A program made the translations under genes and the position numbers. DNA of 64,000 nucleotides, from positions 36,387,759-36,451,758 of the forward strand of contig CAIIXF020000009.1 of NCBI GenBank assembly GCA_903813345.2. Direction: 5' to 3'. How positions within the stretch are numbered: the stretch's first letter is position 1; each line of letters opens with the position of its first letter. Source of the stretch: Owenia fusiformis. Its lineage: Eukaryota; Annelida; Polychaeta; Sabellida; Oweniidae. Of this stretch, positions 10,384-63,845 are shown in pieces. The notes below the pieces were generated by a model. The model was not told the DNA's origin. It ran no database searches and worked only from the letters and a program-made list of their open reading frames with translations.

Positions 10384-13300
10384 CTAATCAGTCTTCTTGG
10401 TGTCTCCTTGATGTTGACATACACCATTGTCTACAATTTCTACGGCACAACGACGAGGAAACCAGCCTCGTTTTCGATCACGACCTCTCACTAGTGTCTT
10501 ATTTGGACCCTCTAACTTGTCTCCATATAACCAATACCTGAAGTAAAAGAAATATATAGGACATTGTTGTCATAAAGGTGTGCAATTTTAGATTTGTTTC
10601 TATAAGCCTAACATTACACTTTATAATAAAAAATACTGACTTTTTCCATCGAGTGACCAAGACCATGTCTCCTTTCTTGATTGCGATTCTCTTTTCATCT
10701 GTACATGGAGGCCTGCAGCAGACCCTAAGGCCCTTGCTGATGGGACAGACACTACCCGAGTAATCCTCAACTGTCTTGTATTCTACTGCTCTATCTATCT
10801 TATCTGCTTTCTGCTTTAACTGCTCTATCTGAAATAAAAATATGAAAAACTTGTTTAAAAACATATTTTGCATATCTTGTTGCAGTCAACAAGATATTTT
10901 ACATTCAACAAGTTATTTTAGCCTGATATTAAAACATAAACAATACAAGGCATTAACATGCAAAATGTCACCACCTATCATTTGTTACAGATGCCAACCA
11001 CGGAATGCCGAACAGCATCCACATCCACAAAAAATTGGAGACTAAAAAAATATGGCACCACTTCTGGTGGTGACATAATAATCCTTGATGTATCAACCTA
11101 CTAAGGGAGAGGTTGGGAGTAACCTAAGAAAACAAATATTATCAACATATCTATGATCATCACTGAAACGATGCATCGCAGGAATAAAATCAAATACAAA
11201 CAAACTTCAAAGATGGGATCAATACAGAACAGTACAATGCTCCCATAGACACAATTTAAATCAACTTTGCAAATTAATTTTTAGTAATTTGATCTTAATC
11301 CCAAATAAACAGCCATCATGGAATACAATGGTCCTCTCTTGCATCATTGTAATGTACTCACATGGATATAATGTGGTAATAAAGGATACAATACATAGAT
11401 CTAAAGATAGACAGGTTTTTAGATGCGACGTGTATCAGAATGATAAACAACAAGAAATGAAGAAATAGATTTATACTAGATAGAAGTAATAATACAAGAT
11501 GTCCTTACAGTGAAAGTATATTGATCACAGTCTTCTATCACATCCCATGTAATACCATCAGATACAGGATTTCCACTTAAATTATAAACTTGTGTAAAAT
11601 TTCTCCATCGTCCCAGATCATAAGGATAAATAAATTCTTCTGTCTCATCTTCCTCTCGTGGGCGATAATAAGCCTTATCACGTATCCACTGCTCTATGCC
11701 AGTCTCGTTTCTCAAGATACTTTTAATCTACAAAACAATGAAATATGCTTGAGAAATATTTTTTTCAAATAGCCGTTACATATTTATAATCATTGCCAAG
11801 CATACATATTATTACACGCGGTGGAATTCAATAGGAAACCTTATATATAGGGAGGCCAATAATGTAATGATTTACCTGGCCCTTCCTAGTGTATAGTAAG
11901 CTGTAAATTCATATTGCAAACGAATAAAAAACGAAACAAAAAAAACTTTCAGCAACAGCATTGGGACATTAGCCTGTATGTGATGTCCAGGTGTACATTT
12001 TTTAATTTGTGTGTAATTTCAAATTGAAGTACATTTTTGGTACTAAACTTTTGCTTTAACATTATCATGTCGTAGCCCATCCTCAAATAATTTATTTATC
12101 TTATGACACAAAATATGATGGCATTCTCACTTTTGAATAGTTAAGATTATGTTTCATGCCGTCTTACCTGGAAGTACCATAGAGCCCCTACTGCTACAAT
12201 GACACCTATTGACAGCCCAATAGAGAATACACAATGAATGAAACCTTTGATGCCCAAGTAGACAATAGGAACATCGAGTACTCCTCTGTGAACGTAATAA
12301 GGCTACAAAACAAAATATTCAAGGCATTACGATAAGAAGATTTCTCGTGTATGGTACAAGTAACATGTCCACATGATGTTCCAGAGATAACCAACAAAAT
12401 GAAATTTAGAAACACCTGCATTTTTTCTAATGTACAATCTAGTCATTTAGGAATAGAATTTTCTTTCTTAACATTCCATCAACCCCACCCCTTTAAACAA
12501 GCAAAAAATCATTTAAATTTGGTTCCATAAATCTTTTCACTTAAAACATTTGAGAATAAATATATTTTATAGCATTAAGCTTACCATGTTGACAGCTCTG
12601 ATGATACCAGGAATGAGTGAGCAGGAAGAGTGGAAGCAACCACAGCAAGCAAAGAACAAGAAGTTGGCAAAGTTACCATGGTTGAAATGGCCACAACATG
12701 TGTTGATCCAGGGACAATGATGGTCCATCTTCATGACACATCTGAAAGAATAATTTTTATAAATGTTCACGTAAATATATCTGAATTTATTATTAGATCT
12801 GAGTGACTACTGACTGATAAATGAAAACTGGGAAATATTGAAATGTTCTGCTTGTATTATAACAGCCAATATTACAAATGATGTCCCGTGTTTCTATTAA
12901 AGCTGCATATGCACACATCAAACGACAGTAAAATGTTTATATAGCTTTATAACTTTCTAAACTCCTCACTGTTCATGTTCTCTTACTGAGACTAACAGTT
13001 CGGGTAATAGGAATCAGTGAATAAGATTGGTTCTGTTGCCAAGCATGTTTCAAATTTTGAAAGATGATTTGATTATGACCTGCTACATACATGTATTTGC
13101 TAAAACAATAGAAATGTTGGTTTGTCTGTATACTATTAAAAAAGTTAAGGACTAAGACCACTTTTTCATAACCTTTTCAAGGCAGTCAATGATTTCTTGT
13201 TCTTTCACATTTTATTTGTCTAAATGTTGTTTTTATTGGAACATGTTTCACAACATCTGATGCACATTTTCATGACAAGGACTGTTTTTGAGTAGTATAT

Positions 13301-16041
13301 TTTGATTGAGAAACACCCTCTCCATAATTCCTTAGACGAGGCGTACCTGTTGCATTTTCTACAATGATGAGATCTAGGTGCTTTGTAGCCCTCACAGAAA
13401 TGACAGTACTGCAGGTATTTTGTGTCTTCAACATTTTCCTGCAAACACAATGTAGTGTAGTTATTATACATGTACATGTAATTCACAATTGATAAGGTTG
13501 GTTGGATTGTGAAATGAGACTTAAAGCCCCACTATACTTAATAACCCAGATGCGAGTAGAAATAATCTTGATTTACGTCATTAAAAATTCAAAATTCAGT
13601 CAAAGTAATATCATATTTGAAATCTATATGTAAAATTACAACTAGAAATGTGGTTTTAAAAAGTGTTTATCAACATTGAAAAATTAATTTTCTTTGAAAA
13701 TGTGACTTCTAGCTCGGGGAGATTCCCCATAGACCCCAAGCTATAAAATCACAAAAAATGAAATATCTTTTCTTTTAGTGACCAGATAATATTTTGCTTT
13801 ACTGGACATATTTTCATTAGTATAAGTATCAGACACATAAGGGTTATATGAAAATTGAGCCACTTAAATTGATAATATTCAAGTTTAAGGGAACTTTCTT
13901 ATATACCTGCCATGTTAATTAACCCAAATCAGCCACCTGGTGGTGAAACTGGTAACTAACTACTCGCATTTGGGTAATTGAGAAGAAAAAAAGATCATTG
14001 AAACATATTACTCACACAGTCGCTCAAATATAACACAAAGTTTGATTTGCTTTAATATTGAACCAAGAAAAAAATAACTCACACAGAAAAAAACATTTTA
14101 AGTTCAGAGATCATTAGGACATGCACATGCTAAACAAAGTGCATCTTTTTAATTACTTTTGATTTAAAAGATGGCGACACTTCTATAAAAATGAATGTAT
14201 CATGTAATACAAACAACTTCGCCACCTTTCAATGACATTGATAAAAACTTGATATACAAGACACACAGTGATAAATATCGCACTTTGAAGAGCAAACTGG
14301 CCACCATGCAATTTACCCAGCATGGCCAAAACCAAATCAGACCTTGGCACTATAGTCTGCTCTTGCATCTGTAAACATTTCAAGTTGACAAGGTTAGCGG
14401 TTTTCCTGCAATTTTGATGACAAGAATTTATTTTAGTCTTGAACTTTGGGAAAATTTAGATAACATTGTTTGTGACCTAATTTGATGACCTTCGACCTTG
14501 AAAATTTCACTTTTTCAGACCTCAATAGGTCTTTTGTAATTAAGCTGACCTAAATTTAAATCCAAAATATCAATTTAGAAAATCAAATTTTTGACCTTTT
14601 CAAGGTCACTGAAGATCAACGAAAGGTCAAATCTGAAATCTAAGGTCAGATTTGAACTTCTGAGAACTTGTAGACGTTTTTTAAAAAAAAATTTGGTCAA
14701 TTTGGAGCAAGTTGAAAAATTCAAAATGGCCGCCACGTAGTTTACCTAGCATGCCCTAAACCTAATCAGATCTTGGCACTAGTCTGCTATTGCATGTGTA
14801 AAAATTTCAAGTTGAACAGGTTAGCGATTTTCTTGGAATTTTGATGACAAGAATTGATTTGTAGTCTCAAACTTTGAGAAACTTGGATAACATCATTTGT
14901 GACCTAGTTTAATGACCTTGACCTTCGACCTTGAAAATTTCACTTTTTCAGACCTCAGTAGGTGTTTTGTAATTAAGCTGACCTAAATTTAAATCCAAAA
15001 TATCAATTTAGAAAATCAACTTTTTTGACCTTTTCAAGGTCACTGAAGGTGAATGAAAGGTCAAATCTGAAATCTAAGGTCAGATTTGAACTTCTGAGAA
15101 CTTGTAGATGTTTTTAAAAAAAAAAATTGGTCAATTTGGAGCAAGTTGAAAAATTCAAAATGGCCGCCAGATTGAAAAATTCAAAATGGTCACCATGTAA
15201 TTCAGCCAGCATACCCAAAACCTAATCAGATCTTGGCAATAGTCTGCTCTTGCATCTGTAAAAATTTCAAGTTGAACGGATAAGTGGTTTTCCTGGAATT
15301 TTGATGACAAGATTTGTTGAAAAATTCAAAATGGCCGCCACGTAGTTTACCCAGCATGCCCTTAACCTAATTAGATCTTGGTACTAGTCTGCTCTTGCAT
15401 CTGTAAAAATTTCAAGTTGAACAGGTTAGCAGTTATCCTGGAAATTAGATGACAAGATTTAGTTTATGTGCCGCCCGCCCGCACGCCCACACGCCCGCCC
15501 AGCAGCACAAGACGACGACAATATAGCACTTTTTCAAAGTGCGATAATAAGGAGGGGAGGCATTATTTCCGATACTTCATAATGTTGCAGAGTTCTCAAC
15601 TGGAGTAATTTTCACCTCAGTGAAATAATGTTCTCATTTTTGCATTTTACTAAATAATTTCAAAAACTCATAAAAATTTTCTAAACTGGATGCAAATGAA
15701 TTCTTCATTAATTTTTGAATTCTCAAATAGTCATTCACCTGACTGTGTTCCAATATTATACAGTACCAGAATAGTAAAATCATTATTATATAACATCTAC
15801 TTACTGGTTTCCAGCCATAAGGAACGAATCCAGGTCCAACAAAGGCAGCCCTGAAGAAATTGTACAATGTAATGATATTCCACGTTAGAAACACTGCCAT
15901 ATTAATCTTTCCCCCCAGCGTAGAGACTGGCCACCATTGCAGTGTGATATGGACAGTAGAACTGGTAATGGTGAATATTATTGTGAGAGCAATCAATGGT
16001 CCCCAGTGGATGATCTGTTTCAGCTTTGCTAGGACACTCAT
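10384..16041 (-). CDS. ZDHHC6: Palmitoyltransferase ZDHHC6
   Basis: ER membrane S-acyltransferase that adds palmitate to cysteines of ER proteins. Seven exons on the minus strand join in phase: 16041-15805, 13438-13347, 12741-12585, 12302-12168, 11727-11509, 10828-10641 and 10537-10384, giving 393 residues (human 413). TM segments 1-2 lie in exon 1. The Cys-rich domain (YLQYCHFCEGYKAPRSHHC) leads to the catalytic DHHC motif at residues 116-119, with Cys119 the acyl carrier, and further TM segments follow. The C-terminal half carries IEQLKQKAD and the variant SH3 region ending in YWLYGDK and RGWFPRR. The protein ends KKTD, a dilysine-type ER-retention tail where vertebrates have KKNR. The start ATG directly follows an acceptor (TTTTAG), so the 5' UTR must lie in an upstream exon that I could not place. 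The second-largest intron (13439-15804) is filled by repeats. Confidence 0.95.
10945..11080 (-). mobile_element. Short copy of the GTGGTGACA repeat family
   Basis: Read on the minus strand it starts with ATGTCACCACCAGAAGTGG and ends with GGTGGTGACATTTTGCATG then TTAATGCCTTG. It is the same beginning and end as the 2-kb copy at 36102-38121, but with almost no interior. It lies in the ZDHHC6 intron between 10829 and 11508. Confidence 0.7.
13542..13977. mobile_element. MITE-like element in a ZDHHC6 intron
   Basis: TAACCCAGATGCGAGTAG at the left is matched inversely by CTACTCGCATTTGGGTA at the right, about 436 bp apart. The interior is AT-rich and noncoding. A TA-type target site is possible but not proven. 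Confidence 0.65.
14271..15550. mobile_element. Family-2 repeat element with internal tandem copies
   Basis: It begins ATCGCACTTTGAA and ends with the inverse TTCAAAGTGCGAT. Inside, a unit with AAATGGCCGCC, CCAGCATG, CTAATCAGATCTTGGCA and GTCTGCTCTTGCATCTGTAA recurs about four times. A second module (CAAGGTCACTGAAG, AGGTCAGATTTGAACTTCTG) recurs twice. The right end has a C/G-rich run of CCCGCC words near 15472-15502. A short relative lies at 21291-21474. Noncoding. Confidence 0.75.
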
Positions 16042-22411: not shown

Positions 22412-24429
22412 CTATAGATCTGTTGACACATTAGACTGCGACATATCTGATTGTGACATATTTGGCTGCGACAAATCAGATTGTAAGCCACTGGACTGAG
22501 CCACATTGGATTGTGATTCATTACGTGGTGGCACAGCACTTCTAAGCACATTATACACCTCTGACTGCGACAAGGTAGACTGAGTTATTACAGGCGCAGT
22601 ATTTGGTTGCTGATTGGTTGTTCCAATGTTGTCACTCCTAACAACCACCTCTTGATTGGCTGTCTCTGAATCCTCTGTTTGGAATGTAGGATTATCCACT
22701 CCAGCGTTTGTGGTAACAGCTGAAGGAATTACTGCAGGGGAACCCTGTGCCGTTGCTATGGCAACACCACCTGTACTTGGAGTTGACACCCCTATAGAAG
22801 GGGTGTTGATAGTAGCTTCACTGACTGTATAACTAGGAGGGTCAGTTGCATTATAGTTTGGGGGTGTGAGCACATTCACCATGCCTTCAATATTGATGAA
22901 ATATATTTCATGTCCCATAGACTCTTCATACGATGGAGGCATATCACCACTGTTGTTGCTATGACGACTTCTTCGACTAGCAACACTACCTGATCTACTT
23001 CGCCGTCTTCGTGGACTAACATATCGCACTGAAATAGAAAACAATATAGATTATAAAATTTGTGATGACATGACATCAACTATAATTATCATCATTAATA
23101 TCTAATAATATAGCATAATGCCTATCAGTGGCGGATCCAGGAACCAACAGGGGAAGGGCCCAAATTTGAGGTCAGAGAAAAAACCGAAAAGTGGGCCCAA
23201 ATTTTGAAAATTTGAGGCCCATTTTCTTCAAAATTTGGCCTAAATTTAAAAAATAAGGCCTTAGAAGGCCCAATAATAACCAAAAGGCCTACTTTTTGAG
23301 GCCTTTTTTGGCCTAAAATTTTTTAGGGCCCAACTTTTTTTTTTCTGGGCCAACCTTAGGGGGGGGGGCCCGGGCCATTTATTGAAAGGCCTTTATTAAA
23401 ATACAGTATACCTGCATATGGGTCTTCCCCATTCCTCCACTTGCGAGATATGATTAGCTTTCCCAACACAAAGCTACCAACCAGCATCAGAAACCCACAT
23501 ACTGAAACAAAAAATATGCATCTCAATAATAACATATGAACTTTTCAATGAAAAATTGTAATAAAGCACAATGTGAATGTAATGTACATTAATGTACATG
23601 TATCATTAACCACAGAGTATAGAAGTTGAATTAAAATTTAAAATGTGGTTTTCTGACAAGTCTTACAAAAACTGCAAAGGTTCCTGGTTCCAAGTTGCCT
23701 TCTTCCCTAGAGCTAGGGACATAAAACATTCAAACCCTACTGTGCTGGCATATTTCAACCAATCTGAGAGCCACATTTAAAATATGTTAACTTCAGTAAT
23801 TTGAGCAACGAGTTTGAATTTTCCTGACACATCTGTAAATGGCACTTAGATATCAGGCCCGTAGCCAGGGGGGGGGGGGTTCGATGGGTTCGAGTGAACC
23901 CCCCTGGCCAAAAAATCTTTCAAAATCATGCAGTTTTTCACCATTCTGAGCACTTTTTAAGTGATTTTGGCCATTTTTGAACTAAAATTGTCACAAGTGA
24001 ACCCCCCTGGAATTTTTCAAAAAGTGAACCCTCCTTGGCAAATCCTGGCTATGAGCCTGGATATACAATGGTCTTATTCATATGAGACATTCTACCATCA
24101 ATAAAAAAAATCATATGCTCACCTAAGCCTAGAAGAGCAAATGCTAGTGGGATAGAAACATTATGTTCACGATAGTAAGCATGGGCTGGTCCAACATAGG
24201 TGGCACCTAAGATCATAAATGTCAGTCCAACACTTGCGATTATAGTAAACACTGTCACTAACTGGCAGAATAGTTTTTTCCCTCCAGGGTACTGTATTTT
24301 ATCCCAGGCTTCTTGTGGGTTTGTTCCATAAGAATATGGGGTGTATGCTCTCCCAGCTGATGGTCGCACTGATACGGCACCATTTGAGTATCCTTGGACA
24401 CTTTGGCTTAGGTTTGGTACGCGAAACAT
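22412..24429 (-). CDS. Two-pass membrane protein with PPxY motifs
   Basis: Three coding exons (24429-24123, 23501-23412, 23028-22412) join in phase to a 337-residue protein. A cytosolic-type N-terminus is followed by two hydrophobic segments (about 53-76 and 92-115) separated by a short loop with an N-V-S sequon at 90-92. After an Arg/Ser-rich stretch (139-165), the long tail contains PPSY at 173-176, PPNY at 188-191 and PPSY at 196-199, then a Ser/Gln/Asn-rich end with repeated SQS, SQP and SQSD words. PPxY motifs bind WW domains, for example of NEDD4-family ubiquitin ligases, so this may be a trafficking or ubiquitination adaptor; that is inference. The architecture recalls TMEM139/TMEM171-type proteins but I cannot assign orthology. 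An acceptor at 24464-24466 shows that the 5' UTR continues in an upstream exon. Confidence 0.85.
23126..23394 (+). mobile_element. Family-3 dispersed repeat (CAGTGGCGGATCC)
   Basis: Begins CAGTGGCGGATCCAGGAA and is rich in GGCCC, GGCCT and AAATTTG words, ending in a G-run. A second copy with the same order is at 54639-54873. It lies in intron 2 of the PPxY membrane gene. Noncoding. Confidence 0.7.
23856..24060 (+). mobile_element. Family-4 dispersed repeat (TCAGGCCCGTAGCC)
   Basis: Begins TCAGGCCCGTAGCCAGG and a G-run, then GTGAACCCCCCTGG, AATCATGCAGTTTTTCACC and ATTCTGAGCA. An inverse copy is at 60577-60750. It lies in intron 1 of the PPxY membrane gene, about 60 bp from the end of its first coding exon. 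Confidence 0.75.
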
Positions 24430-24463
24430 TGTGGAATGAGACCCTTATGTAACCATCACATCA

Positions 24464-31400: not shown

Positions 31401-34400
31401 GTTGTGTATTTGCAGCCAGGAGGAGGATGACCCCACAACCCCCAGTGTACAGTCAGCCTACAGGAAACTACTACCAGGCACCACCTCCTGCTTATACACC
31501 ACCACAAACACCTCTCTATGGATTTGTACCAACACAAACATTCCCAACAGCACCACCAAGTAAGTGGGAGGATATCATATATAGTAAAACCTGTGTATAT
31601 TGAACACATATGGAGCCACAAAAATGTGTTCGCTGTAGGTAGGTGTTCGCTACAGAAAGGGTCGTTTATACAGAAGTCAATACAGTATGTGCTGAGGGAG
31701 AGTGTCCACTAAAGACAGGTGTTCACTTTGACAATTTTTGCTGTAATGGCTTTGAACAGTAGAAAATGTGTAATTACATTAATTGAGTTAAAAACTGCTT
31801 CAATTTGATTAATAGCATAATTTATGTACACTTTTATTGATTTATTATTACTTTTAGACCAATTCAGCAACCTTATGTGATGGAAGTGACAAGCTCCCGG
31901 AGTATGTCATGAATATAACCCTCAATTAAGAAAACCTTATGGCATTTTAAAACAGAAGACTCTGACTTACTGAATCAAAAAATTTCAGAAACTAACTGGG
32001 ATTTTATTTTGACCAACAATGTTAATAATGCCACAGAGCTCTTTGTTAGAACTTTTCTAGATATAATTAAAACAAATGTATCTCATAAGACTATTTCAAC
32101 CAGGTATGATCATCAACCTTGGTTTTCCAATAACATCAAAAAGGAGATTTATAAAAGAAACAAACTTCACCATAAATACAAATCTACTAACATTTTGACC
32201 TATCATACGCAATTTAAAATTCAAAGTAAGATAGTGAACAAATTGATTTGGAAGCAAAATCTGAATATGAATTTAAAATTCGGGAAAAAATTGAGAACAC
32301 CTCCAAAAATTCTGTTGACTACTGGTCTTTGATTCGCGACTTACTTGGAAAAAATCAAGTTACATCAATTCCGGTTTTATTTGATCCTAATTCCAACTTA
32401 TCAGCAGCCACCAGCTCTGATAAAGCAAATGTTTTAATGAAATACTTTGTAAGCAAGAACATTGTCACTATTCCAGAGAATTACACTCCAATATTTAGAC
32501 CCAGAACTCATCATATTCTTCAGGAAATCAAAACTACTCCTGACGAAGTTTTTAACATTTTAAAAGATCTTGACATTTCTAAAGCACATGGGCCTGACAA
32601 TATATCTAACAAAATGTTAAAAGTCTGTGCTAAATCTCTAGCAATACCAACTGCTGAGCTCTTTAATAAAATTTTTAAAGAAAATATTTTTCCTGATATA
32701 TGGAAAGAAGGATTCATAACCCCCCTTTATAAAAAGGGTGACAAAGGTTTGATTACAAATTATAGACCTGTAACCCTCTTAAGCAGCCTCTCAAAAGCAA
32801 TTGAAACAATTATACATAAACACTTTTTATCATTTCTTTTAGAAAATAACTTGATTTATAAACTTCAGAGTGGCTTTTTACCGAAACACAGCACAGTTAA
32901 CCAATTAATCAACATTGTTCATGACATTCATGCTCAAATTGACAATAGTCAAAATGTCCGCTCTGTTTTCCTTGACCTGACGTCAGCTTTTGACCTAGTT
33001 CCGCACCAACTTTTGTTACTTAAACTTAAAGGTTACGGTTGTCAGGAAAACTTTATTAAACTGATGACTTCATATTTATCCAACAGAAGAGTAAAAGTTA
33101 AAGTGAATAATAGCTATTCGAATTGGTCCAATGAAAATACTAACGAGAATACAAACAACCCGAATAATTTGCATAACAATTTTGTCATAAATGCTGGAGT
33201 TCCTCAAGGATCAGTATTAGGACCCCTGCTTTTTCTATTATATGTGAATGATCTTCCTGATAATTTGCACTCAAAAACCTTTATTTTTGCAGATGACACT
33301 TCAGTCTATAACTCCTATGAAAAAAGTGAGAATTTTATTAACATACATGTACACCAACCCATTCAAAATGACTTAGATAATCTTGCTTTATGGGCTTATA
33401 CCTGGAAGATGAATTTTAAAGCACAAAAAAGCGCCGATTTGATTTTCACGGGAACTAGAAACTTACTTATTGAACCTCCCTCTTTACATCTAGGAGATGA
33501 ACTGATACCAAGATGCAACAGTCATAAGCACTTGGGGCTAATTCTGGATCAACATTTGAACTTTAATGACCATATTGATCAACTTATCACTAGAGTAATT
33601 TCTCTAATGAGACCTTTAAAGAAACTTAGCAAACTTCTTAAGAGTAAACACCTGGAAACAATTTACAATGCTTTCATTATGCCACATTTTGATTACTGTG
33701 ATATAATTTACGGTAAAGCTTCAAATTTTAAACTTCAGTGTTTAGATAGATTGCACTACAGAGCAGCATGTTTGGTTTCTGGTGTTATACATGGGTCAAA
33801 CACTGCTTCTGTTCTAAGTTCCTTAAACTGGAAATCCCTATCAACTAGAAGAGATGAGCATTATAAAATGTTTATGTTTAAATGTAGGTACAATTCTTAT
33901 CCACCTTTCATTTGTGAATTACTTCAAACCTATGAAAATACTCAGGCTAGGCAACTGAGAGATACAAGACATTACTTAATTCCTACAAAAGCTAGCAACT
34001 CATTCCGGAGGTCAACTATTTTGAATGGAATAAGAATATGGGACAATTTACACCTTGACACGAGAAGAGGTCAACCAATATCTCGCTTCAAAAGATTAGT
34101 AAGAGATTACAGGAGCCCTGTCTCCATGCTACCCACTACCAAAATGGTAAACGAAATGCCTAGATATGTTGAATCTGCTTTTAACAAACTCAGATTGGGT
34201 CTCCTTTTAAAATCACAGCTATATGCTCATAATTTCACCAGTGTTAGTGATCCCTTTTGTAAATGTGGATTACCACAAACACCTTCTCATTTTATCTTAA
34301 AATGTCCTCTGCTTGTAAACTAGCGTGAAACTTTATTTGCAGGACTGCAAACTTCAGATCTTCATCTTTTGGTTCAGAATTTGAACACAGTTGACAAAAT

Positions 34401-37400
34401 TCAGTTTCTTTTGTATGGTGATGAAGATTTAGATAATTCATTAAATGAAAAATTAATAGAACTTATGAGTCATTTTGTTAATCAAAGTCTGAGCCAAATT
34501 GATCGGTTTGGCTAATTTTTGCATGCATGTGTTAACACATCCCTGGCCCATGGGATTATAGTTTCTTATATGTGTGAAAAAGCTAATGTTTTTTTTTATA
34601 AAACTTTGGCAATCAATTGCATGTCTTATATTGTTTACTAAAGGAATAAATTTATGTATAAAAAAAATAAAAAAAAATAAAAAAATATGACAAAAAATGA
34701 TTAAACATGATGTGGTTTCAGGTGATGGAGTGTTTATGTATGATGCACCCCCTCCATATCCAGGCATTGATTCAGCAGCTTCTGCCCCACCTCCACAGAC
34801 TGCAGCAGGTAAGCTCATACTGCCACTGCCCCCTCCAATATCCTCTATATGTATTCAGTTTTCATACAAAGTGTCAATATGAGAAAGCAATGTAAAATTG
34901 CAGTTTGATTAGAGTTTTTATGTTCAGCTAAGAGAGACTAAGGTGTGAAATTCTCTCAAGTAGTGTTTAAAACTCCTAATTCTGGACATCCATCCCAGTA
35001 AATTAATGGTCCCAAAATGGTTGGATTATTCACTGGTCGGTATCAAGCGAAGGTTAAGGCCCTCACACACTATATATGAACATATGATCATACTCTGGAG
35101 TTTCCCTGTCATATAAGTCTGATTTATTTCTGATTTAGTTCAAATATCAAAGCATTACATCAATATAAACTTGACTATTTGATGAAAACTAAAAATACCA
35201 AAATCGACATTTCCCGTCCTAAATGCGAAGGTGATGGCCGTAACCGTCGCTTGATACTGATCAGTGATTAATATCCCATCGAACAAAGTTTGGAGGGATA
35301 TAGGGAACGCCTCCGTCCGTCCTACGTACGTACGTTCTCCTGTCTGTCCAGGTGATAACTCATATACCGTAAGCCCGATTTTGTTAATATTTTGTACACA
35401 TATGCCCTATGGGGATAGAAGTTCTGCTCAAAACCAAATTTTCAGCATGGCCTCTCATTTAAAAATGGTGGCTATTTTAGTGCAGATTTTAGAGTAATTT
35501 AGGTACATTATATAAAACTGTAATAGCAATATGTTTTAAATATAAAAAAATTATATAGGACATTAATAAAGCTAGAAATGTAGATATTTAAGAAGCACAT
35601 GGCAGCAATCTTGAAAAATGGCAGCCTTTACACGCTATTTTTTATGATTTTTGCTGTAACCCCACAAGTAGTGGAGCGATTTTGTTCATATTTGATATGT
35701 GAATACTATATGCATGGCACACTGTCTAATGGCAGTTTTGGTAGAAGGCTGCCATTTTGAAAAATGACTGCCATTTTTATGTGTGTTATTTTACGTTTTT
35801 TACTATAACTCGTAAAGTAGTTGAGCGATTTTGTTCATATTTGATATGGGAATACTCATAAGCATGTCACACTGTCCAATGACACTTTGGGGAGTAGGCA
35901 GCCATTTTTTAAATGGCCCCAATTTTCTGGGTGTTATTTTACTTTTTTTACTATAGTTCAAATGGCCACCATTTACATTGCGATTCTGTAGAAATTTAAT
36001 ACATGCCTACTTAGAAGCATATTACACTTTCTGATGACAATTTGGCTAGTGACCAACCATTTTGAAAATGGTGGCCATTTTTGTGTGTTATTTTATGATT
36101 TTGATGTCACCACCAAAATTGGTGACATATTGTTATGGTCTCCGTTTTTTTATGTCACCACCAAAAGTGGTGACATATTGTTATGGTCTCCGTTTTTTTG
36201 CGACGGCGGTTGGTGGTTGGCGTCCGGCGGTTGGCGTCCGGCGTCTGTAACAATTTCTTACAACTTCCTATAACTTAACAAATACTGTTTAGACTGACTT
36301 CAATTTTTTTCTAAATCATCTACATGTTCTCAGAAGTTCAAATCTGACTTTAGATTTGACATTTGACCTTCAATGACCTTCTCATGGTCAAAAAGGTCTT
36401 TTTTCAACTTGCTTCACATTGACTAAATTTTTTTTCAAAATCATCTACATGTTCTCAGAAATTCAAATCTGACTTTAGATTTGACATTTGACCTTCAAAT
36501 CTGACTTTAGATTTGACATTTGACCTTCAATGACCTTCTCAAGGTCAAAAAAGGTCAAAAAGGTCTGTTTTCAACTTGCTTCAAATTGACTAAATTTTTT
36601 TTTCAAAATCATCTACGTGTTCTCAGAAATTCAAATCTGACTTAAGATTTGACTTAAGATTTGACATTTGACCTTCTCAAGGTCAAAAAAGGTCAAAAAG
36701 GTCTGTTTTCAACTTGCTTCAAATTGACTAAAAAAAATTTTCAAAATCATCTACGTGTTCTCAGAAATTCAAATCTGACTTTAGATTTGACTTAAGATTT
36801 GACATTTGACCTTCAATGACCTTCTCAAAGTCAAAAAAGGTCAAAAAGGTCTTTTTTCAACTTGCTTCAAATTGACTAAAAAAATTTTCATAATCATCTA
36901 CATGTTCTCAGAAATTCAAATCTGACTTTAGATTTGACATTTGACCTTCTCAAGGTCAAAAAAGGTCTGTTTTCAACTTGCTTCAAATTGACTAAAAAAT
37001 TTTTTCAAAATCATCTACATGTTCTCAGAAATTCAAATCTGACTTTAGATTTGACATTTGACCTTCAATGACCTTCTCAATGTCAAAAAAGGTCAAAAAG
37101 GTATTTTTTCATCTTGCTTCAAATTGACTAAATTTTTTTTCAAAATCATCTACATTCTACATGTTCTCAGAAATTCAAATATGACTTTAGATTTGACTTT
37201 AGATTTGACATTTGACCTTCTCAAGGTCAAAAAAGGTCAAAAAGGTCTTTTTTCAACTTGCTTCAAATTGACTAATTTTTTTTTTCAAAATCATCTACAT
37301 GTTCTCAGAAATTCAAATCTGACTTTAGATTTGACATTTGACCTTTAATGACCTTCTCAAGGTCAAAAAAGGTCTGTTTTCAACTTGTTTCAAATTGACC

Positions 37401-38618
37401 AAATTTTTTTTTCAAAATCATCTACATCTTTTCAGAAGTTCAAATTTGACTTTACAAGTTCTCAGAAATTCAAATCTGACTTTAGATTTGACATTTGACC
37501 TTCTCAAGGTCAAAAAAGGTCTGTTTTCAACTTGCTTCAAATTGACTAAAATTTTTTTTCAAAATCATCTACATGTTCTCAGAAATTCAAATCTGACTTT
37601 AGATTTGACATTTGACCTTCAATGACCTTCTCAATGTCAAAAAAGGTCAAAAAGGTATTTTTTCATCTTGCTTCAAATTGACTAAATTTTTTTTCAAAAT
37701 CATCTACATTCTACATGTTCTCAGAAATTCAAATATGACTTTAGATTTGACTTTAGATTTGACATTTGACCTTCTCAAGGTCAAAAAAGGTCAAAAAGGT
37801 CTTTTTTCAACTTGCTTCAAATTGACTAATTTTTTTTTCAAAATCATCTACATGTTCTCAGAAATTCAAATCTGACTTTAGATTTGACATTTGACCTTTA
37901 ATGACCTTCTCAAGGTCAAAAAAGGTCAAAAAGGTCTGTTTTCAACTTGTTTCAAATTGACCAAATTTTTTTTTCAAAATCATCTACATCTTTTCAGAAG
38001 TTCAAATTTGACTTTACAAGTTCTCAGAAATTCAAATCTGACTTACAGTGTATATTAAGTTTGAACTCATAATATTGTGAGCAACTAGGTGGTGACATTT
38101 TGTCATGTTAATGCCTTGTTTGCTATATACTTTGTTTGTAAAAATGCCAGCCATGGCTGTTCGATGGGATTTGCTACGCTTTGGTGTTGCTGTTGTCTAG
38201 TTAAAGTGTGTCAGATCTCATATTATTCTTGATGTTTCGCATTATATTTGAGGCTTCACAGTTACAAAATATTCTTACATTGTTTTAAAATATTGGAGAA
38301 ATTATTCTTGATGTCTGTGTTTCAAATTGTTTTTGATTAATTAAATCATTTTAATTTTTTTACAATAACAAATTGATTTTTTACATTACATTACATCTCA
38401 CATTATTCTTTATGCCTCAAATTGCACATAATTCAAAATATGAAATTAATTTTGTTGTTTCATACAGTTCATATTTTAACAGTATTCCTTATGTTTCAGA
38501 GTCCAAGGCACAAGAGGCAGCGTCCAGTGCTTATTATAACCCAACCAATCCACACAATGTCTACGTACCCCAGGATGCCCCACCCCCATACTCTGCAGTC
38601 AGTAAAAAGAATGATTAA
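28444..38618 (+). CDS. WBP2: WW domain-binding protein 2
   Basis: Adaptor and transcriptional co-activator that binds WW-domain proteins such as YAP and NEDD4-family ligases through PPxY motifs. Seven exons join in phase: 28444-28475, 28871-28976, 29428-29566, 30706-30798, 31416-31559, 34722-34808 and 38500-38618, giving 239 residues (human 261). The GRAM/PH-like domain occupies about residues 11-120, with [24 protein letters not shown] and [11 protein letters not shown] as in vertebrate WBP2. The Pro/Tyr-rich tail holds PPVY at 132-135, PPAY at 147-150, PPPY at 181-184 and PPPY at 228-231. The conserved block [18 protein letters not shown] precedes the end. The N-terminus is about ten residues shorter than in mammals; the start was chosen because exon 1 (32 nt) joins exon 2 in phase and has a good initiation context. 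Introns 3, 5 and 6 are swollen by mobile elements, but the exons are intact. Confidence 0.95.
29166..29260. repeat. Perfect 27-bp hairpin with an A-rich loop in WBP2 intron 2
   Basis: The arm at 29166-29192 is exactly the reverse complement of 29234-29260; its core is GAAACAAGTCAAATTC. The 41-nt spacer is nearly pure A with a few T. The word ATGTTCAAATATT occurs just left of the left arm (about 29122) and again at 29259, which could be a target duplication. Confidence 0.85.
29851..30660. mobile_element. TIR element in WBP2 intron 3
   Basis: The left end GTTAACCACACATCCTAGT is matched inversely by ACTAGGATGAGTGGTTAAC at the right, one mismatch, 810 bp apart. Sub-terminal regions are rich in AAATTCTGC words on the left and their near complements on the right. 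No transposase frame. Flanking target duplication unclear. Confidence 0.75.
31590..31735 (+). repeat. Decayed repeat built from TGTTCGCTRYAG words
   Basis: In WBP2 intron 5 the words GTGTTCGCTGTAGGTAG, GTGTTCGCTACAGAAAG, GTGTCCACTAAAGACAG and GTGTTCACTTTG recur with irregular spacing. No coding potential. Confidence 0.5.
31925..34686 (+). mobile_element. 5'-truncated LINE retrotransposon in WBP2 intron 5
   Basis: Same orientation as WBP2. The endonuclease domain is absent; the copy starts in the linker between endonuclease and reverse transcriptase. It ends in an A-rich tail of AAAAAAATA-type repeats at about 34660-34686. Exon 6 of WBP2 begins only 36 bp after the tail. Truncation at the 5' side is the usual result of target-primed reverse transcription. 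The family is Jockey/CR1/L2-like by its motifs; the exact clade needs a tree. Confidence 0.88.
31931..34515 (+). pseudogene. LINE reverse transcriptase, broken by frameshift and stop
   Basis: Non-LTR reverse transcriptase that would copy element RNA at a nicked target. The linker with WHFK and QPWF is in one frame to about 32250, where a frameshift moves the reading into the frame that holds the RT domain. RT motifs seen are NYRPVTLLS, the palm A motif FLDLTSAFD, motif [18 protein letters not shown] and the catalytic FADDT. The C-terminal zinc-knuckle-like pattern is C-x-C-x7-H-x4-C near 34257-34310. A TAG at 34321-34323 interrupts the same frame, which otherwise runs on with plausible LINE sequence to TAA at 34513-34515. 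With no endonuclease, a frameshift and an internal stop, this copy is dead. Confidence 0.88.
35031..35266. mobile_element. Small MITE in WBP2 intron 6
   Basis: CACTGGTCGGTATCAAGCGA plus AGGTTA at the left is matched inversely by TAACCGTCGCTTGATACTGA plus TCAGTG at the right with few mismatches. About 236 bp long and noncoding. Confidence 0.65.
35590..36095 (+). repeat. About 150-bp diverged tandem repeat in WBP2 intron 6
   Basis: Copies share GAGCGATTTTGTTCATATTTG, TGGCACACTGTCTAATG-like and GCAGCCATTTT words at spacings of roughly 150 bp. At least three copies are visible, the last leading directly into the element at 36102. Confidence 0.7.
36102..38121 (+). mobile_element. Long copy of the GTGGTGACA repeat family
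   Basis: The head hairpin ATGTCACCACCAAAAGTGG...TGACATATTGTTATGG is present twice in tandem (36104 and 36152), followed by a C/G-rich GGCGGTTGG stretch. The tail is AGGTGGTGACATTTTGTCAT then GTTAATGCCTTGTTT. The interior is a satellite array. Short versions with the same head and tail are at 10945-11080 and 56687-56812. No transposase is present. Confidence 0.75.
36340..38045 (+). repeat. Satellite array with a 554-bp higher-order repeat
   Basis: The basic unit of about 110-150 bp contains TTCTCAGAAATTCAAATCTG, ACTTTAGATTTGACATTTGACC, CTTCTCAAGGTCAAAAAAGG and CAACTTGCTTCAAATTGACT. The stretch starting at 37058 recurs almost unchanged at 37612 (offset 554 bp), so several basic units were recently duplicated together. 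Open frames through it are repeat artefacts. The same words in reverse occur in the family-2 element at 14585-15130. Confidence 0.88.
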
Positions 38619-52710: not shown

Positions 52711-52788
52711 TATAAAATGATCACATCGACACAGAGAGTCGCATTTGAAGGAGTGGAGACATAGATACTTTAACACTGGTAAAATAAG
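52711..52788 (+). promoter_or_regulatory. TATA promoter and noncoding exon 1 of the peptide gene
   Basis: TATAAAA at 52711-52717 is followed about 30 bp later by a plausible start near 52741. The stretch ends in AATAAG then GTAAGA (donor at 52789). There is no long open frame, so it would be a 5' UTR exon joined to the acceptor before 54457, a layout common among neuropeptide genes. Confidence 0.55.
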
Positions 52789-53112: not shown

Positions 53113-54460
53113 CAATTTATTATGGCGGTTCAAAATGAATAGATTATAAGGCCAATTGTACATGTTTCTTGTAATTTTGTCATCCCCTATAGATCTGATT
53201 CTGCCTTACTATTTTGAAAAAATGCATGGTGTTGAAAAGAGTGTACTTGGCACACCAAGCATATATCGCATATCATATCGCGAATTTTTATTATTTCATA
53301 TTATAATGCAACACAAAATGGGAAATGCATTTGTATTTGAGAGGCTGGTTTTCTACTAACCTATATTATCGATTGGACACTGGGATTGTGTTACATGTAC
53401 GGATTGCATCACTGGCCTCAGTCCAAATTGTCTGGAATTCAACCTATAATGAAATATGTTCGATATTAAACGTTGGAATTTGCATAACGCACATGGCATT
53501 TTCACGATGATAGATATATTTCATTTCCGATGTTCTATCAAAATAAATACAGCCCAACGGGTAATCATTATCACTAGGTTAATTTTTGAAATACTGCTTT
53601 TTCTTGAAAACAGCATTAAAGATGGATTTTTGACAAAAAACAGTTCGGGACTAATATAAACAAAGAATTAACAACTGGTCATCATGATATTTTCTAGCTT
53701 GTTTGGGACTGGGTTCTCTTAGCGCGGTGTTTCGATCACATTCCTTACTTAAACGATAAAATACGTTTTACTTCCTGTACGATTTGTCAAAAAATTGTAT
53801 CCTCCAATACCATTGTCGAATTAAAATGCATCGTATGTTAATGCGTTTTTTCCAAAAGCGCGCCAGAACGGCCCTTAACTTGTATTTGGCGATGCGAGTA
53901 ACCTTTATATTTCCATTCCAAAGGCATGCGTTCCTTTATTTTCAAATATTCTCCATAGTTAAACTATATATCAAAATACATATTCTAAACTTAAAACAGT
54001 TATAGTTGGATTGAAACATGTTTTTTATTGAAGTTCTTTACGAGTTGAACGTACTGTGGAAAATATACTGCTCTTCATCTAAAAACCTCCATTTCCCTTA
54101 AACTATTCCTCAATTCCTATAGTTTCGAAATTGATGAATATTTTCATGAATTTTTCGGACTTTTTCGTAAACCATCATGTAAATATTTTTAAGAAAAATT
54201 GGGAGATATTGCAGTGGAGAAAGTGATTTTTCAACTAGTTTTCTTGAGATTTTGCAGATAGTAATTCAAACATAGACGTAGTTTCCAAACTTATGGCGGG
54301 TAGTGTACATCTTTTCTATAGCCTATAAGCATATTTTAGGGGAATACTAAGAACAACAAAAAACAAAAATAGAATTCCATGAAATATCTCGAACATGTTT
54401 ACCCGTAAGCCACTCGTATAATATCGGCTATAATAATGTATTTTCGTCATTTTCAGAAAG

Positions 54461-56460
54461 ATGTTACAAGATATAAGAACGTATACTGCTATTTTACTGG
54501 GCATATTATGTCCATGTTTGATGAGCAATGCTGAAACAGATAGCAGACGTGGTAGAAGTTTGCTGAATGCAGGTACTTGATTGTTGTCAGTTTACCACAA
54601 AGTCACAAGAAATTCCATATTTTATTGGGGTATGTGCTCACTGGCGGATCCAGAAGCTAACGGGGGGGGGGGGGCACACTACAAGCCCGGGAAAATATTT
54701 TGGATCATAAATTGAGCCCAAATTTTGAAATTGAACGCCCATTTTTGGATTATTTGGCCTAAAAAAGGACCAAAAAGGCCAAGTTATGCCCAAAAAGGCC
54801 CATTTTGGGGGGCCTACGAAATTTTTGTTTTGGGCCCTAAATTTTTTTTCTGGGCCCACCCTAGGGCCGCCAGTGTTGCTTTTGCGTGTATGTCTTGCAC
54901 TGGATATTTCATTATTATCCAGACATTATGAACCAGACATTGTCAAATATGCAGAACATGGGCAAGAGAAAGCTCATAACGTGATGCGCGCGTAGAGAGA
55001 GTCCTAGCATATAACTTTTTTTGTTTCTTCAGACTTATTTTGTTTTTCAAGTGTAGTTGTCTTGTTAAAGCAACAGTTAACTGCCCTCTAAACAAGAACC
55101 TCTACACGCCAATTGTCAATTTAGTGCTCATCTAATGCTAGAGGGACACTTGTACGCGAACGTAATAATATAGGTATATGAGTTTCACGTTGAGCGTGAA
55201 TCTTAATGTCTCTATTGTTTTTTACAAAGTTCTCACATCACGTTTGATTAGGTTTTTCGTTAAAATATGTAATATTCAAAATATTAAAGGGACAGTCACA
55301 TTTGGTACGGCGACCGTGCGATCCATCATTTTTGCGATAAACATTTCTACAGTCACCTTAAAATTTCTTTGGTTAGATAATTTAGCAGTCACATTTGCTA
55401 CGTTAATTTGATTTTGAGAAAACTTCAAAACTATAGTTGCCACACTGCTAATAAATTATGACGCACGGAGGGCGTAGGGTCGCCCTTCGGCGGCGTAGTT
55501 TTTCTTGACAAAAAACAAGGTAGACGTAAGGCAGCCGCAGGGGGCCTTGCGGCGATCCTGTGCTTCGCAAAGGTCAATTGTAAAGCCTCGGTCACATTTG
55601 CTTTACGACGGGCGTACGGGGCCGTAGCTTTACAAAATTGATGTAGAAAATCTATATCGTAGACCTACTGCTTATCCCTAATATTTATGCTGCATATTTC
55701 TCTCGATTTCGGGAAGCTATGGCCGCCGAATGATTGCTGTTGATAAATGTGACTAGGGCATAACCCATTAACCCTACGGCAGACGCAAGTCGACCGTGCG
55801 GCGTGCAACCGACGTGCGGTCACACTGGAACCTTTCTGCGGTCTGGCGTACGACCTGTTAATTTCTACGGTGACCGCGAAAATGATAAAATATATCCATA
55901 GCTAGATGGAATGTGACCGAAGTATTACTCTCTTGTTTTGTGCTTTGTAAAAAATATTTGAATTTTATTTTCATTTTTGAAAGTCTAAATGATAAAGAAA
56001 GATCCTCTGCGCTAGGTCCTGCGCTTTTCTTTCATTTTTAACTAAACTAAATGATGGTGTATTTTCAGATTTGAATGGCGTGCAAAGAATTACGTGCCTG
56101 ATCGATCCAAACATAAAAGGATGTTTTAAAAGAAATTCGAATGACATATTACAACAAATCAACGATTTACTAGACCGCCAAGACTCCTTCCAAGATGATT
56201 TAAATGGATTGGAAAATAGCAAAACAGACTCAAACGATTTAGGGATTGCTGATGCACTTAAAAATGACGACCAAGAATTCAGCCAATCAAGTGTTGACAA
56301 TGCCTTCATCTCTATTTCGAAGTATCTGCTAAATAACGCTATGAACAAAAGGGATAATATGGCATTCAAACCATATAAAATATGTCGCTCCTCCTGGACA
56401 CGGTCGCAGTGCCATGCCTACCTACATATAATGCTCCATAGGCGACCAACGATGGTTTAA
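54461..56460 (+). CDS. Predicted secreted peptide precursor
   Basis: Two coding exons (54461-54572 and 56069-56460) join in phase to 167 residues. Residues 1-24 form a signal peptide (TAILLGILCPCLMSNA at its end). A dibasic RR at 29-30 and KR at 58-59 look like prohormone-convertase sites. Between them lies ITCLIDPNIKGCF with Cys47 and Cys56. Residues 60-135 are acidic, Asp/Asn/Gln-rich and probably spacer or helical. The C-terminus has a second pair, Cys143 and Cys152, in ICRSSWTRSQCH, then RR at 162-163. Both pairs have the spacing C-x8-C. Exon 2 starts after TTTTCAG and the gene has a likely TATA-driven noncoding exon upstream. The C-x8-C-F-K-R arrangement loosely recalls cyclic neuropeptides such as allatostatin C, but I do not assign a family; a four-cysteine secreted protein is equally possible. 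Confidence 0.68.
54639..54873 (+). mobile_element. Family-3 dispersed repeat, second copy
   Basis: Starts CACTGGCGGATCCAGAAGC and ends GGGCCGCCAGTG, so CACTGGCGG/CCGCCAGTG form short inverted ends. The interior has the same GGCCC, GGCCT and AAATTTTGAAA words as 23126-23394. It lies in intron 2 of the predicted peptide gene. Confidence 0.75.
55291..55921. mobile_element. CpG-rich element with repeated GTCACATTTG ends
   Basis: GACAGTCACATTTGGTACGG at the left and ATGTGACCG at the right are inversely related. Additional end-like words lie inside (GGTCACATTTGCTTTACG near 55590, AAATGTGACTAGG near 55745). The interior is rich in CGTACG, CGGCG, GACGTGCGG and ACGGCAGACG words, strongly GC-richer than its surroundings. 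No transposase frame. It is inserted in the intron before the last exon of the peptide gene. Confidence 0.65.
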
Positions 56461-56686: not shown

Positions 56687-56812
56687 TGTCACAACCACGA
56701 GTGGTGACATATTGTTTTGTGGATGGTGTTCGGTAGGCGGCGTTCGGCGGTGGGCGATCTGCGTATGTAATAAATGGTGGTGACATTTTTGCATGTTAAT
56801 GCCTTGTTTATA
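56687..56812 (+). mobile_element. Short copy of the GTGGTGACA repeat family
   Basis: Starts TGTCACAACCACGAGTGGTG then ACATATTGTT, has GGCGGCGTTCGGCGGTGGGC, and ends GGTGGTGACATTTTTGCATG then TTAATGCCTTGTTT. It is head and tail with nearly no interior, as at 10945-11080. Confidence 0.75.
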
Positions 56813-61144: not shown

Positions 61145-61197
61145 TAAACACTACACTACACCACTTTGAAAATTGACTGAAAACACTGTTTTCCAAA

Positions 61198-61428
61198 ATG
61201 ATCTTGTTTCTTTCATTAATACTGTGTACATCGATGGTTCACACATTTCCATCAACTAACCGGACTGAAGAGTGGGAAGTATGGAAGAACAAATTCATGA
61301 AAACGTATAAGACGCAGGAGATCGAGCAGATGAAGAAAGTAAAATGGATTGAGAATTTGTTGTTTGTGCAGACACATCGTCAGCAGAGCAGTGGTTTTGA
61401 TGTTGAGATGAATATGTTTGCAGATTTG
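61198..61428 (+). CDS. First exon of a cathepsin-L-like propeptide (I29) gene, partial
   Basis: The exon encodes 77 residues and ends at TTG followed by the donor GTGAGT. A signal peptide (about 1-18, MILFLSLILCTSMVHTFPS) is followed by the helical I29 inhibitor segment: WEVWKNKFMKTYKT, then an ERFNIN-like pattern with Glu43, Lys47, Trp50, Asn53 and Val57, and the GxNxFxD-like end with Asn72, Phe74 and Asp76. In papain-family proteases this segment blocks the active site until cleaved. The protease domain is not found before the end of the window; the intron carries nested inverted repeats. It may be a full cathepsin L, a stand-alone I29 inhibitor, or a truncated gene. Confidence 0.72.
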
Positions 61429-61515
61429 GTGAGTATTTCCTATATCAATTGGATTTTTATGATGAGGAATAGTCTGGATCAGTCCTCCATGACCATGTCT
61501 TTGACACTTACACGG

Positions 61516-63845
61516 TGCCCATGTCAATCTGCGCGCCTACTAAGCACACAGTTTTAAACTCTGACAAACTGCGAGCATATTTCAAAATCTTCTGTGTTAA
61601 GAATTTACAGTGTAAAGTTATATCTTTGTCTTTTTATCGTCATTTGCCGTTTATTCAGGCATTGCGTCTGTGTATAGTAGAATATATAGGATCACGTCAT
61701 CTGATTAAAGCAGCATCACGGGGGATAAGCAAAACGAGGGCGAAGCCACGGACTGCGACTCGCGTTATTCAAAACGAGGTTACAACGCATTATAGCTGAA
61801 CAATGGCGGTAAGTCCAAACTTAATTTGGAAGGCATGTTAGGATTTGGGGTAGATTATTGGTTTGGATATTCTACAGAATAGCTAGTATGTTCCAGTCGG
61901 TGATCAACATATTCATACTCCATCTGCAATGGCATTCTTGGTGCTCGGCTGTCCAATAGTTTAGCATGAACACAAATGAATTCGAAATCTGCCACAAAAA
62001 ATGTAATTTTGTCAATATTTGTCCCTAATATACCGATTTAAACAAAGGAATCAGAAATGACATCGAATTAATATAATTATTCATGTTCTGTTGTTACAAT
62101 TACATCTTCGTGTGGTATTTGGTAAGCGGAAAACGTACAATTACATAGAAAATAGGAATTTATAATAGTCACAGTCCATCCATCTGCCCAACGCAGTCCG
62201 CGACTCAGTGTTGCTTTATATCTGAAGCTGAACGCAATCACAGCCAAAGGTAGATAGCACAATGTGTGTACAGGTGTGGCCGAAATGGAGCAACTTTGGA
62301 CAAAATTGAATATAAAGGGCTATTTTAATAGACCTACATCGTGTCTCAATCCATTCTGCAAATATATACAAGCTGTCAAATACAGCTGAAATCATGAATT
62401 TATGGTAGCTAGCAATATTGATGGACTGTTGGAAAGATCATCCAAAATTACATTAACTCACCAACTCTCCAATTATTTGATATTTTCCTGATATCTTAAA
62501 TACTAGTTAATGTACCCTTCCCCAACAGCTTTTATTGCATCATCAAAAAGTTAATTGTTTCGCATTTCTACTTCTTATAAAAAGTCTCACCACTATCCAA
62601 TTATCTATATATTTAACCCTATCCACAAATTGGTTTGTAATAAACATATTACGCTGTCATCTTGCGCTCGACTGTTCTGCCAAATACGCTATTGAATTGC
62701 CATATTTCTAGGTCTTAAACGATACAATATAGCAATTTGGGACATTGATTCAGGTAATAGATATATGTTAATCAACGTAACTTTGAATGATAATCTGGAT
62801 GCTGACTTTCTTTTCCTGAAACAATAATAGCGTAGGAATATAGTTTACACTATCTTATTTATTTCGTGTTCGCGGCTGGACTGCGTTACTTAGAATATCA
62901 ATGGAGGCTGTGTTGCGTTGTTGAAATAGCTTTGCTTACTGGACTGCGTCCACTATGAATGCGCAGTTTGAATCTAATTTTCTCCTCATGAACACATTCT
63001 ATTATCAAATCATTTTCACGAATTATACTCAGAGCCTCAACTAACCTTTAGATATCAGAAACGTGTTAAAACTCCTTTCAAATGTATAGTAAATTAAATA
63101 ATATGCACATATTTTACAGGTAAAATCAGAACTTTGCTACTGTTTTAGCTTGATCTGGACAACTGCTTATTTTCTTATCTACAGACCAACAGTAGATACA
63201 GAGTAATATCTTGGTCACCGATTAGACACTACGATAGCATTTAAAATACATGGATTTCTCTATTTTGTCGGAAGAAGCAGAAGGCACTGCCGGATGTCCC
63301 TCCATTTTGGCGCTGGGCTGCGGTGTTGAGTTACGCGAGTCGCAGTCCGTGGCTTCGCCCTCGTTTTGCTTATCCCCCGTGAGCATAGTTTGTGTTCAAA
63401 ACGATAATACGCCATAAACGTGATTTAAACATTTTTCTTGTCAAACTGCGCGCCTGTTATTCACATGTATTTCCCAAACGGCGTGCCTAATATTTCCTAA
63501 CTGCTTGTTTTATATTATTAGAAAACGTAAGCGCCATATGTAAGGCACATATGTATCTAATAGTAGAACCCCATAATTGAAATATTTTGTGAGTCCATCC
63601 ACCAAGATGATGATCTGGAAATAAAAGTTTTTTCGTTCCCAACTCAATTGTTACTTCTATTATACATTTTGACTTTCAATATGAAAATCTCATAAAATCT
63701 GACGATAAAACAAAATTTCCACAGCTATATGAAAGACACCTACACCTGCCTCTGTAGAAATTTCAATGATAAGATGTAGTTTTGATAGTGTATGCGCGCA
63801 GTTTGTAATTTCCTGGCAAAAATAGGCGCGCAGTTTGCGCTTTAT
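61516..63845. repeat. Outer inverted repeat around a nested TIR element
   Basis: The segment 61516-61585 (with CTGCGCGCCTA and ACAAACTGCGAGCATA) is matched inversely by about 63780-63845 (TATGCGCGCAGTTTGT and TAGGCGCGCAGTTTG). A further CAAACTGCGCGCCTGTTA lies at 63444. This suggests an older element of about 2.3 kb into which the element at 61717-63381 was inserted. Confidence 0.55.
61717..63381. mobile_element. TIR element with 49-bp perfect termini
   Basis: The first 49 bp, starting CACGGGGGATAAGCAAAACG, are the exact reverse complement of the last 49 bp. The pentamer AGCAT flanks both ends (61712-61716 and 63382-63386) as a probable 5-bp target duplication. The interior has no transposase-like frame but repeats ACTGCGT and CGCGACT words. 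The perfect termini point to a young insertion. Confidence 0.82.

Follow-up and report, generated by a model that had tools for sequence, protein, structure and literature searches.

The stretch of DNA analysed here (the window, 64,000 bases long, with a G+C content of about 31-37% in 4-kb steps) contains a candidate three-exon gene with a non-coding first exon. Its predicted product of 167 residues has the layout typical of known prohormones and belongs to no family that we tested; it is best read as the precursor of a candidate orphan peptide. The candidate is very probably a real gene. That it encodes a secreted prohormone, from which a ring peptide is cut out as an extracellular ligand, is moderately probable. 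The first-pass annotation, made from the letters of this DNA, had proposed a new neuropeptide or a secreted four-cysteine factor. The sequence is best read as a secreted, prohormone-like precursor with four cysteines; its neuropeptide nature is putative.

Precursors of small ring peptides evolve fast and are easily overlooked. A gene for an orphan ligand whose cut site is defined would provide a peptide that is open to synthesis and to screening against orphan receptors. As stated in the passage cited, several bilaterian peptide receptors had no ligand assigned to them in 2018, either in all phyla or in some (PMC5818035).

Gene structure and encoded protein

Joining positions 54461-54572 and 56069-56460 of the forward strand in phase gives a frame of 167 residues that ends with TAA (Table 1). 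Exon 2 contributes residues 1-37 plus one base. GT and AG are present at both junctions, 52788/54457 and 54572/56069. According to weight matrices that are rough and approximate, the donor at 52788 is within the top 0.3% of the 3404 GT sites of the forward strand, and the acceptor at 54457 is within the top 0.9% of its 3106 AG sites. The sites of the second intron are weaker by the same matrices (donor 54572, top 3.8%; acceptor 56069, top 16%). In-frame stops are located at 54419-54436, just 5' of the ATG at 54461. They lie inside intron 1 and thus are absent from the spliced message. A TATA-driven non-coding first exon had been suggested by the annotation, and TATAAA at 52711 together with the strong donor at 52788 fits such an exon, with the TATA box as the putative promoter element.

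The motif GTGGTGACATATTGTT is found in a 48-base tandem repeat (36099-36199) and again at 56701-56716, in what is presumed to be the candidate's 3' UTR. This UTR may therefore derive in part from a dispersed repeat.

Table 1. Features of the candidate gene, in window coordinates
Feature	Position	Strand	Remark
TATA box TATAAA	52711..52716	+	pattern match; putative promoter, upstream of presumed non-coding exon 1
Presumed non-coding exon 1, ends AAG/GTAAGA	52740..52788	+	start approximate, estimated from the TATA position
Exon 2: 4 bases of 5' UTR, ATG 54461, signal sequence, RR29-30	54457..54572	+	
Intron 2, phase 1, 1496 bases, GT..AG	54573..56068	+	
Exon 3, coding part: residues 38-167, stop TAA 56458-56460	56069..56460	+	
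Exon-3 share of first ring segment (residues 39-57), Cys47-x8-Cys56-Phe	56071..56127	+	processing putative
Acidic spacer, residues 60-130	56134..56346	+	14 D/E vs 4 K/R, no Cys
Second ring segment, residues 133-161, Cys143-x8-Cys152, KR131-132 to RR162-163	56353..56439	+	processing putative
Candidate polyadenylation signal AATAAA	56769..56774	+	pattern match; putative function

The recomputed translation bore out the coordinates, the in-phase join, the four cysteines, the RR and KR sites and the acidic spacer that had been annotated. Residues 1-24 are read as a predicted signal peptide from their hydrophobic core and Ser-Asn-Ala end. Of the six cysteines, those at positions 17 and 19 fall within the signal sequence; the other four are at 47, 56, 143 and 152. 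The dibasic pairs are RR29-30, KR58-59, KR131-132 and RR162-163. RR29-30 is followed by a 27-residue segment that begins in exon 2, ends with Cys-x8-Cys-Phe and has KR58-59 directly behind it. The next 71 residues resemble a spacer: they are acidic, contain many N, Q, S and D residues and lack cysteine. The second cysteine pair had been correctly placed before an RR site, but KR131-132 had been missed; with this site present, the second pair, too, is bracketed by dibasic sites. Apart from the cysteines the two segments are unlike each other (BLOSUM sum -23). The x8 spacing that they share does not demonstrate kinship of the two rings. A tblastn search with the protein found no paralogue in the 64-kb window, the best other match having an E-value of 3.6.

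This layout bears on a different reading, an unprocessed secreted protein in which the two cysteine pairs steady one small fold, that of a cytokine-like or antimicrobial factor, and the dibasic pairs have no role. Four cysteines beyond the signal sequence, spaced alike in the two halves, would suit such a protein, as would the several helices in an AlphaFold2 model of exon 3 alone. That model, built from a single sequence, is of very low confidence (mean pLDDT 42.7, pTM 0.29), is silent on disulphides and may be called uninformative. All four dibasic sites, however, flank the two cysteine segments, the middle part looks like a spacer and no family match was found in our searches; we consider the unprocessed protein unlikely.

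Gene or chance occurrence

The open frame of exon 3 has 154 codons, and 0.24 frames that long or longer are expected per 64 kb under a first-order model of the window (100 simulations). Its length is within chance expectation and by itself is weak evidence. An open frame of 148 codons (55974-56417, reverse strand) also runs antisense to exon 3; its codon score is poor.

As the frame length is unremarkable, the whole spliced model was tested instead. A full model was defined by an ATG, a 12-residue hydrophobic core at least equal to the observed one, an in-phase tail of at least 129 open codons, donor and acceptor scores at least as high as those of the observed weaker pair, and an intron of 60-3000 bases. 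The forward strand of the window has one such model, which is the candidate, and the reverse strand has none; any such model occurs in just 5 of 1000 simulated single strands. The chance of a full model is thus about 1% per two-strand window, which is an optimistic value because the thresholds derive from the candidate itself and the scoring of splice sites is approximate. With two looser settings there is still one model on the forward strand, while the reverse strand has six and nine; of 1000 simulated strands, 27 and 137 contain one or more. When the tail had to reach 120 codons or more, 60 simulations gave none.

The codon preference of the proposed frame is mildly coding-like. The codon log-odds are -0.4 in this frame and from -10 to -19 in the five others; 7% of random stretches equal or beat this score, and the codon table comes mostly from a reverse transcriptase and unverified frames of the same window. 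The share of RNY codons (0.34 each) does not tell the frame from its antisense. The TATA box, the exon-1 donor and the AATAAA signal lie outside the model count and add support for a gene.

We regard it as quite unlikely that this is a gene model which arose by chance or has decayed and lacks a product: the rarity of equally good models in simulated strands, the in-frame codon score and the signals outside the count speak against it, even though the length of the open frame, the weak sites of the second intron, the post hoc thresholds with their less rare looser variants, and the lack of a homologue in Pfam, PDB, IMG/VR and GTDB are all what such a model would lead one to expect.

Comparison with known peptide families

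Neither the whole protein, nor exon 3, nor either ring segment has a match in Pfam. The mature Aplysia elevenin peptide, used as a control (mature peptide only), is likewise Pfam-negative, so the silence of Pfam on short peptides says little. In the PDB, the whole protein has two weak matches in the spacer region (E 1.3 and 1.9), and the two ring segments have none. No IMG/VR contig matches the pattern; among GTDB contigs there are 41 pattern matches, of which tblastn confirmed 0. Searches of these two non-animal contig collections with a single protein reach close relatives only. Since the collections searched contain no animal genomes or transcriptomes, failure to find a relative says little in favour of novelty. 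These results, together with the negative outcome for the rings of elevenin, GGNG and MCH given below, agree with the statement of the first-pass annotation that the family was not recognised.

A literature search for three sequence strings from the first peptide retrieved no paper. Among the matches listed in the literature on cysteine-containing neuropeptide precursors, none could be equated with the candidate, published alignments in figures and supplements aside. Precursors of starfish, sea cucumbers, crinoids and brittle stars are not described with two C-x8-C pairs in the portions of text considered, where the spacing is often not given. In particular, the crinoid precursors PCNP6 and PCNP7 are amidated and have four cysteines, with the spacing not given in the passage cited (PMC9793003). 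Residues 113-132 appear faintly glucagon-type; this resemblance was set aside, there being no dibasic site before them and no Pfam hit.

Of the known families, elevenin was compared most closely, by the passages cited from each paper. Its ring consists of two cysteines with 8 residues between them (PMC10175484). The peptide is non-amidated and N-terminal, lies directly after the signal peptide and is followed by KR; insect precursors have 99-170 residues (PMC7179676). The Cys47-x8-Cys56 ring and the absence of an amidation signal (CF-KR58-59) are similar in the candidate, which in contrast has a dibasic site before the peptide. From Ala24, the presumed cleavage site, to Cys47 there are 22 residues including RR29-30, and the peptide may start at residue 25 or 31. 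Elevenins have a conserved Gly two residues after the second cysteine and, in 93% of cases, Arg one residue after it (PMC9963005), whereas the candidate has Phe57-Lys58 and no Arg-Gly. Additionally, it has no Ala-Pro at ring places six and seven and carries a second C-x8-C near the C-terminus.

The introns differ as well. An intron lies inside the peptide-coding sequence of insect elevenins (PMC4237046, PMC6585902), and the elevenin gene of the cone snail Lautoconus is described with two phase-2 introns (PMC9963005), while the candidate has one coding intron, in phase 1 and 9 residues before Cys47, which leaves the ring uninterrupted. Elevenin precursors are barely conserved beyond the peptide, as far as the cited text goes (PMC6585902). 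The letter similarity to elevenin does not exceed that of shuffled sequences: the shuffle fractions are 0.47 and 0.35 for peptide 1 and 0.86 and 0.48 for peptide 2, for the two elevenins compared, both quoted in papers, which score 16 mutually. Membership in the elevenin family was rejected on the intron, which is outside the ring and in another phase, and on the absent Arg-Gly tail. Aplysia elevenin without its disulphide is reported not to activate its own receptors (PMC10175484); thus peptides of this sort can depend on one small ring for their activity. For Saccoglossus and Branchiostoma, according to the same source, elevenin-like receptors had been predicted, but no precursor to go with them (PMC10175484).

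Eight ring comparisons were made in total (two peptides with four reference rings, two of them taken from general background). The rings of GGNG peptides and of vertebrate MCH are x8, and MCH has an aromatic residue after its second cysteine. The best comparison was that of peptide 1 with vertebrate MCH (shuffle fraction 0.07) and the second best that of peptide 2 with GGNG (0.20); given eight tests, neither counts.

A single ring peptide behind the signal and then a dibasic site is a layout that the candidate shares with GGNG/excitatory peptide, CCHamide and echinoderm CCHamide-like precursors, among which those of brittle stars are described in this way (PMC5627052). CCHamides and CCHamide-like peptides are amidated, whereas the candidate has Phe before KR58 and no Gly. 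Both CCHamide and GGNG excitatory peptide were rejected, as the C-terminal amide signal is absent and the ring letters are no nearer than those of shuffles.

MCH is described as lying at the C-terminal end of its precursor, with Met or Ile after the first cysteine and a basic residue two before the second (PMC4772807). The candidate has in common with it the x8 ring, the basic residue two before the second cysteine (Lys54) and the aromatic residue after it. However, pair 1 is N-terminal and has Leu after its first cysteine; pair 2 is near the C-terminus, but has Arg after the first cysteine and Ser two before the second. MCH was rejected on these positions and residues and on a ring similarity that is not significant. 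Luqin precursors, according to the same paper, combine an amidated RF/RW/RYamide peptide with a C-terminal C-x10-C pair (PMC4772807). The candidate is similar in having a single peptide and a cysteine pair in the C-terminal region, but its pair is x8 and its peptide is a ring; luqin was rejected since there is no RF/RW/RYamide peptide and C-x8-C instead of C-x10-C.

Putative processing and neighbouring sequences

If the gene is transcribed and spliced as modelled, the signal peptide of the secreted product would be cleaved off near Ala24, and a proprotein convertase would cut at RR29-30 and KR58-59. A carboxypeptidase would remove the basic residues, leaving a peptide of ~27 residues with the C-terminus Cys-Phe-OH, and a disulphide between Cys47 and Cys56 would close the ring. 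There is no Gly before KR58-59, so this first peptide would not be amidated. It would act extracellularly, most likely through a G-protein-coupled receptor. Folding and sorting may be the role of the acidic spacer and of the C-terminal Cys143-Cys152 loop, or else these may yield a second peptide.

The prohormone reading is favoured by the 167-residue in-phase join that carries all the features named above, by the rarity of such models in simulated strands, by the in-frame codon score and by the TATA box, the exon-1 donor and AATAAA. It is also favoured by the similar layout of elevenin and CCHamide precursors, which have a single N-terminal cysteine-ring peptide and then KR in the passage cited (PMC7179676). 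Weighing against it are the absence of a family match, the mediocre 54572/56069 sites, the chance-length exon, the open antisense, the 7% of random stretches with an equal codon score, the post hoc thresholds with their looser variants and the uninformative fold.

A more far-reaching reading makes the candidate the first known member of a hormone family not yet described. Its two C-x8-C segments, on either side of a removable acidic spacer, would then yield a pair of ring peptides or one hormone of two chains held together by disulphides. Should the DNA come from a deuterostome, the product would in addition be a candidate ligand for the elevenin-like receptors of Saccoglossus and Branchiostoma. 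We consider this reading very unlikely. Least probable is an insulin/relaxin-like hormone of another cysteine pattern, with the N- and C-terminal cysteine segments disulphide-linked after excision of the middle: the order of signal, two-Cys chain, KR, connecting piece, KR and two-Cys chain would suit it, but the cited passage gives C-x11-C for the B chain and CC-x3-C-x8-C for the A chain of insulin/relaxin (PMC4772807), and membership there was rejected on C-x8-C found twice, four cysteines outside the signal sequence and no Pfam hit.

ARAGORN finds no tRNA in the window, and Rfam gives no match to it at gathering scores. The DNA is probably animal, to judge from pieces of a DHHC palmitoyltransferase, a reverse transcriptase and a cathepsin-propeptide exon. 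The DHHC palmitoyltransferase gene, which we take to be ZDHHC6-like, is represented by pieces on the reverse strand at 10502-16041 (first exon about 15637-16041, C-terminal piece 10502-10885); a further piece at 13223-13531 matches Pfam DHHC below the cut-off (E 1.5e-4). A piece at 4731-5015 on the forward strand resembles a ubiquitin-conjugating enzyme, presumably UBE2S-like (Pfam UQ_con, E 0.018, below the cut-off). Exon-like frames at 22415-24444 on the reverse strand may belong to a membrane protein with PPSY motifs; they have no confident Pfam match. A reverse transcriptase, presumably non-LTR-like, occupies 31919-34320 on the forward strand, with a 697-codon frame at 32230-34320 (Pfam RVT_1, E 3.3e-27) and another open frame just before it. 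At 36494-38016, a 136-base unit is repeated in tandem about 11 times. An exon at 61177-61554 on the forward strand, some 5 kb downstream of the candidate, begins in a signal-like manner and encodes an I29 domain, the cathepsin propeptide inhibitor (Pfam E 3.2e-10).
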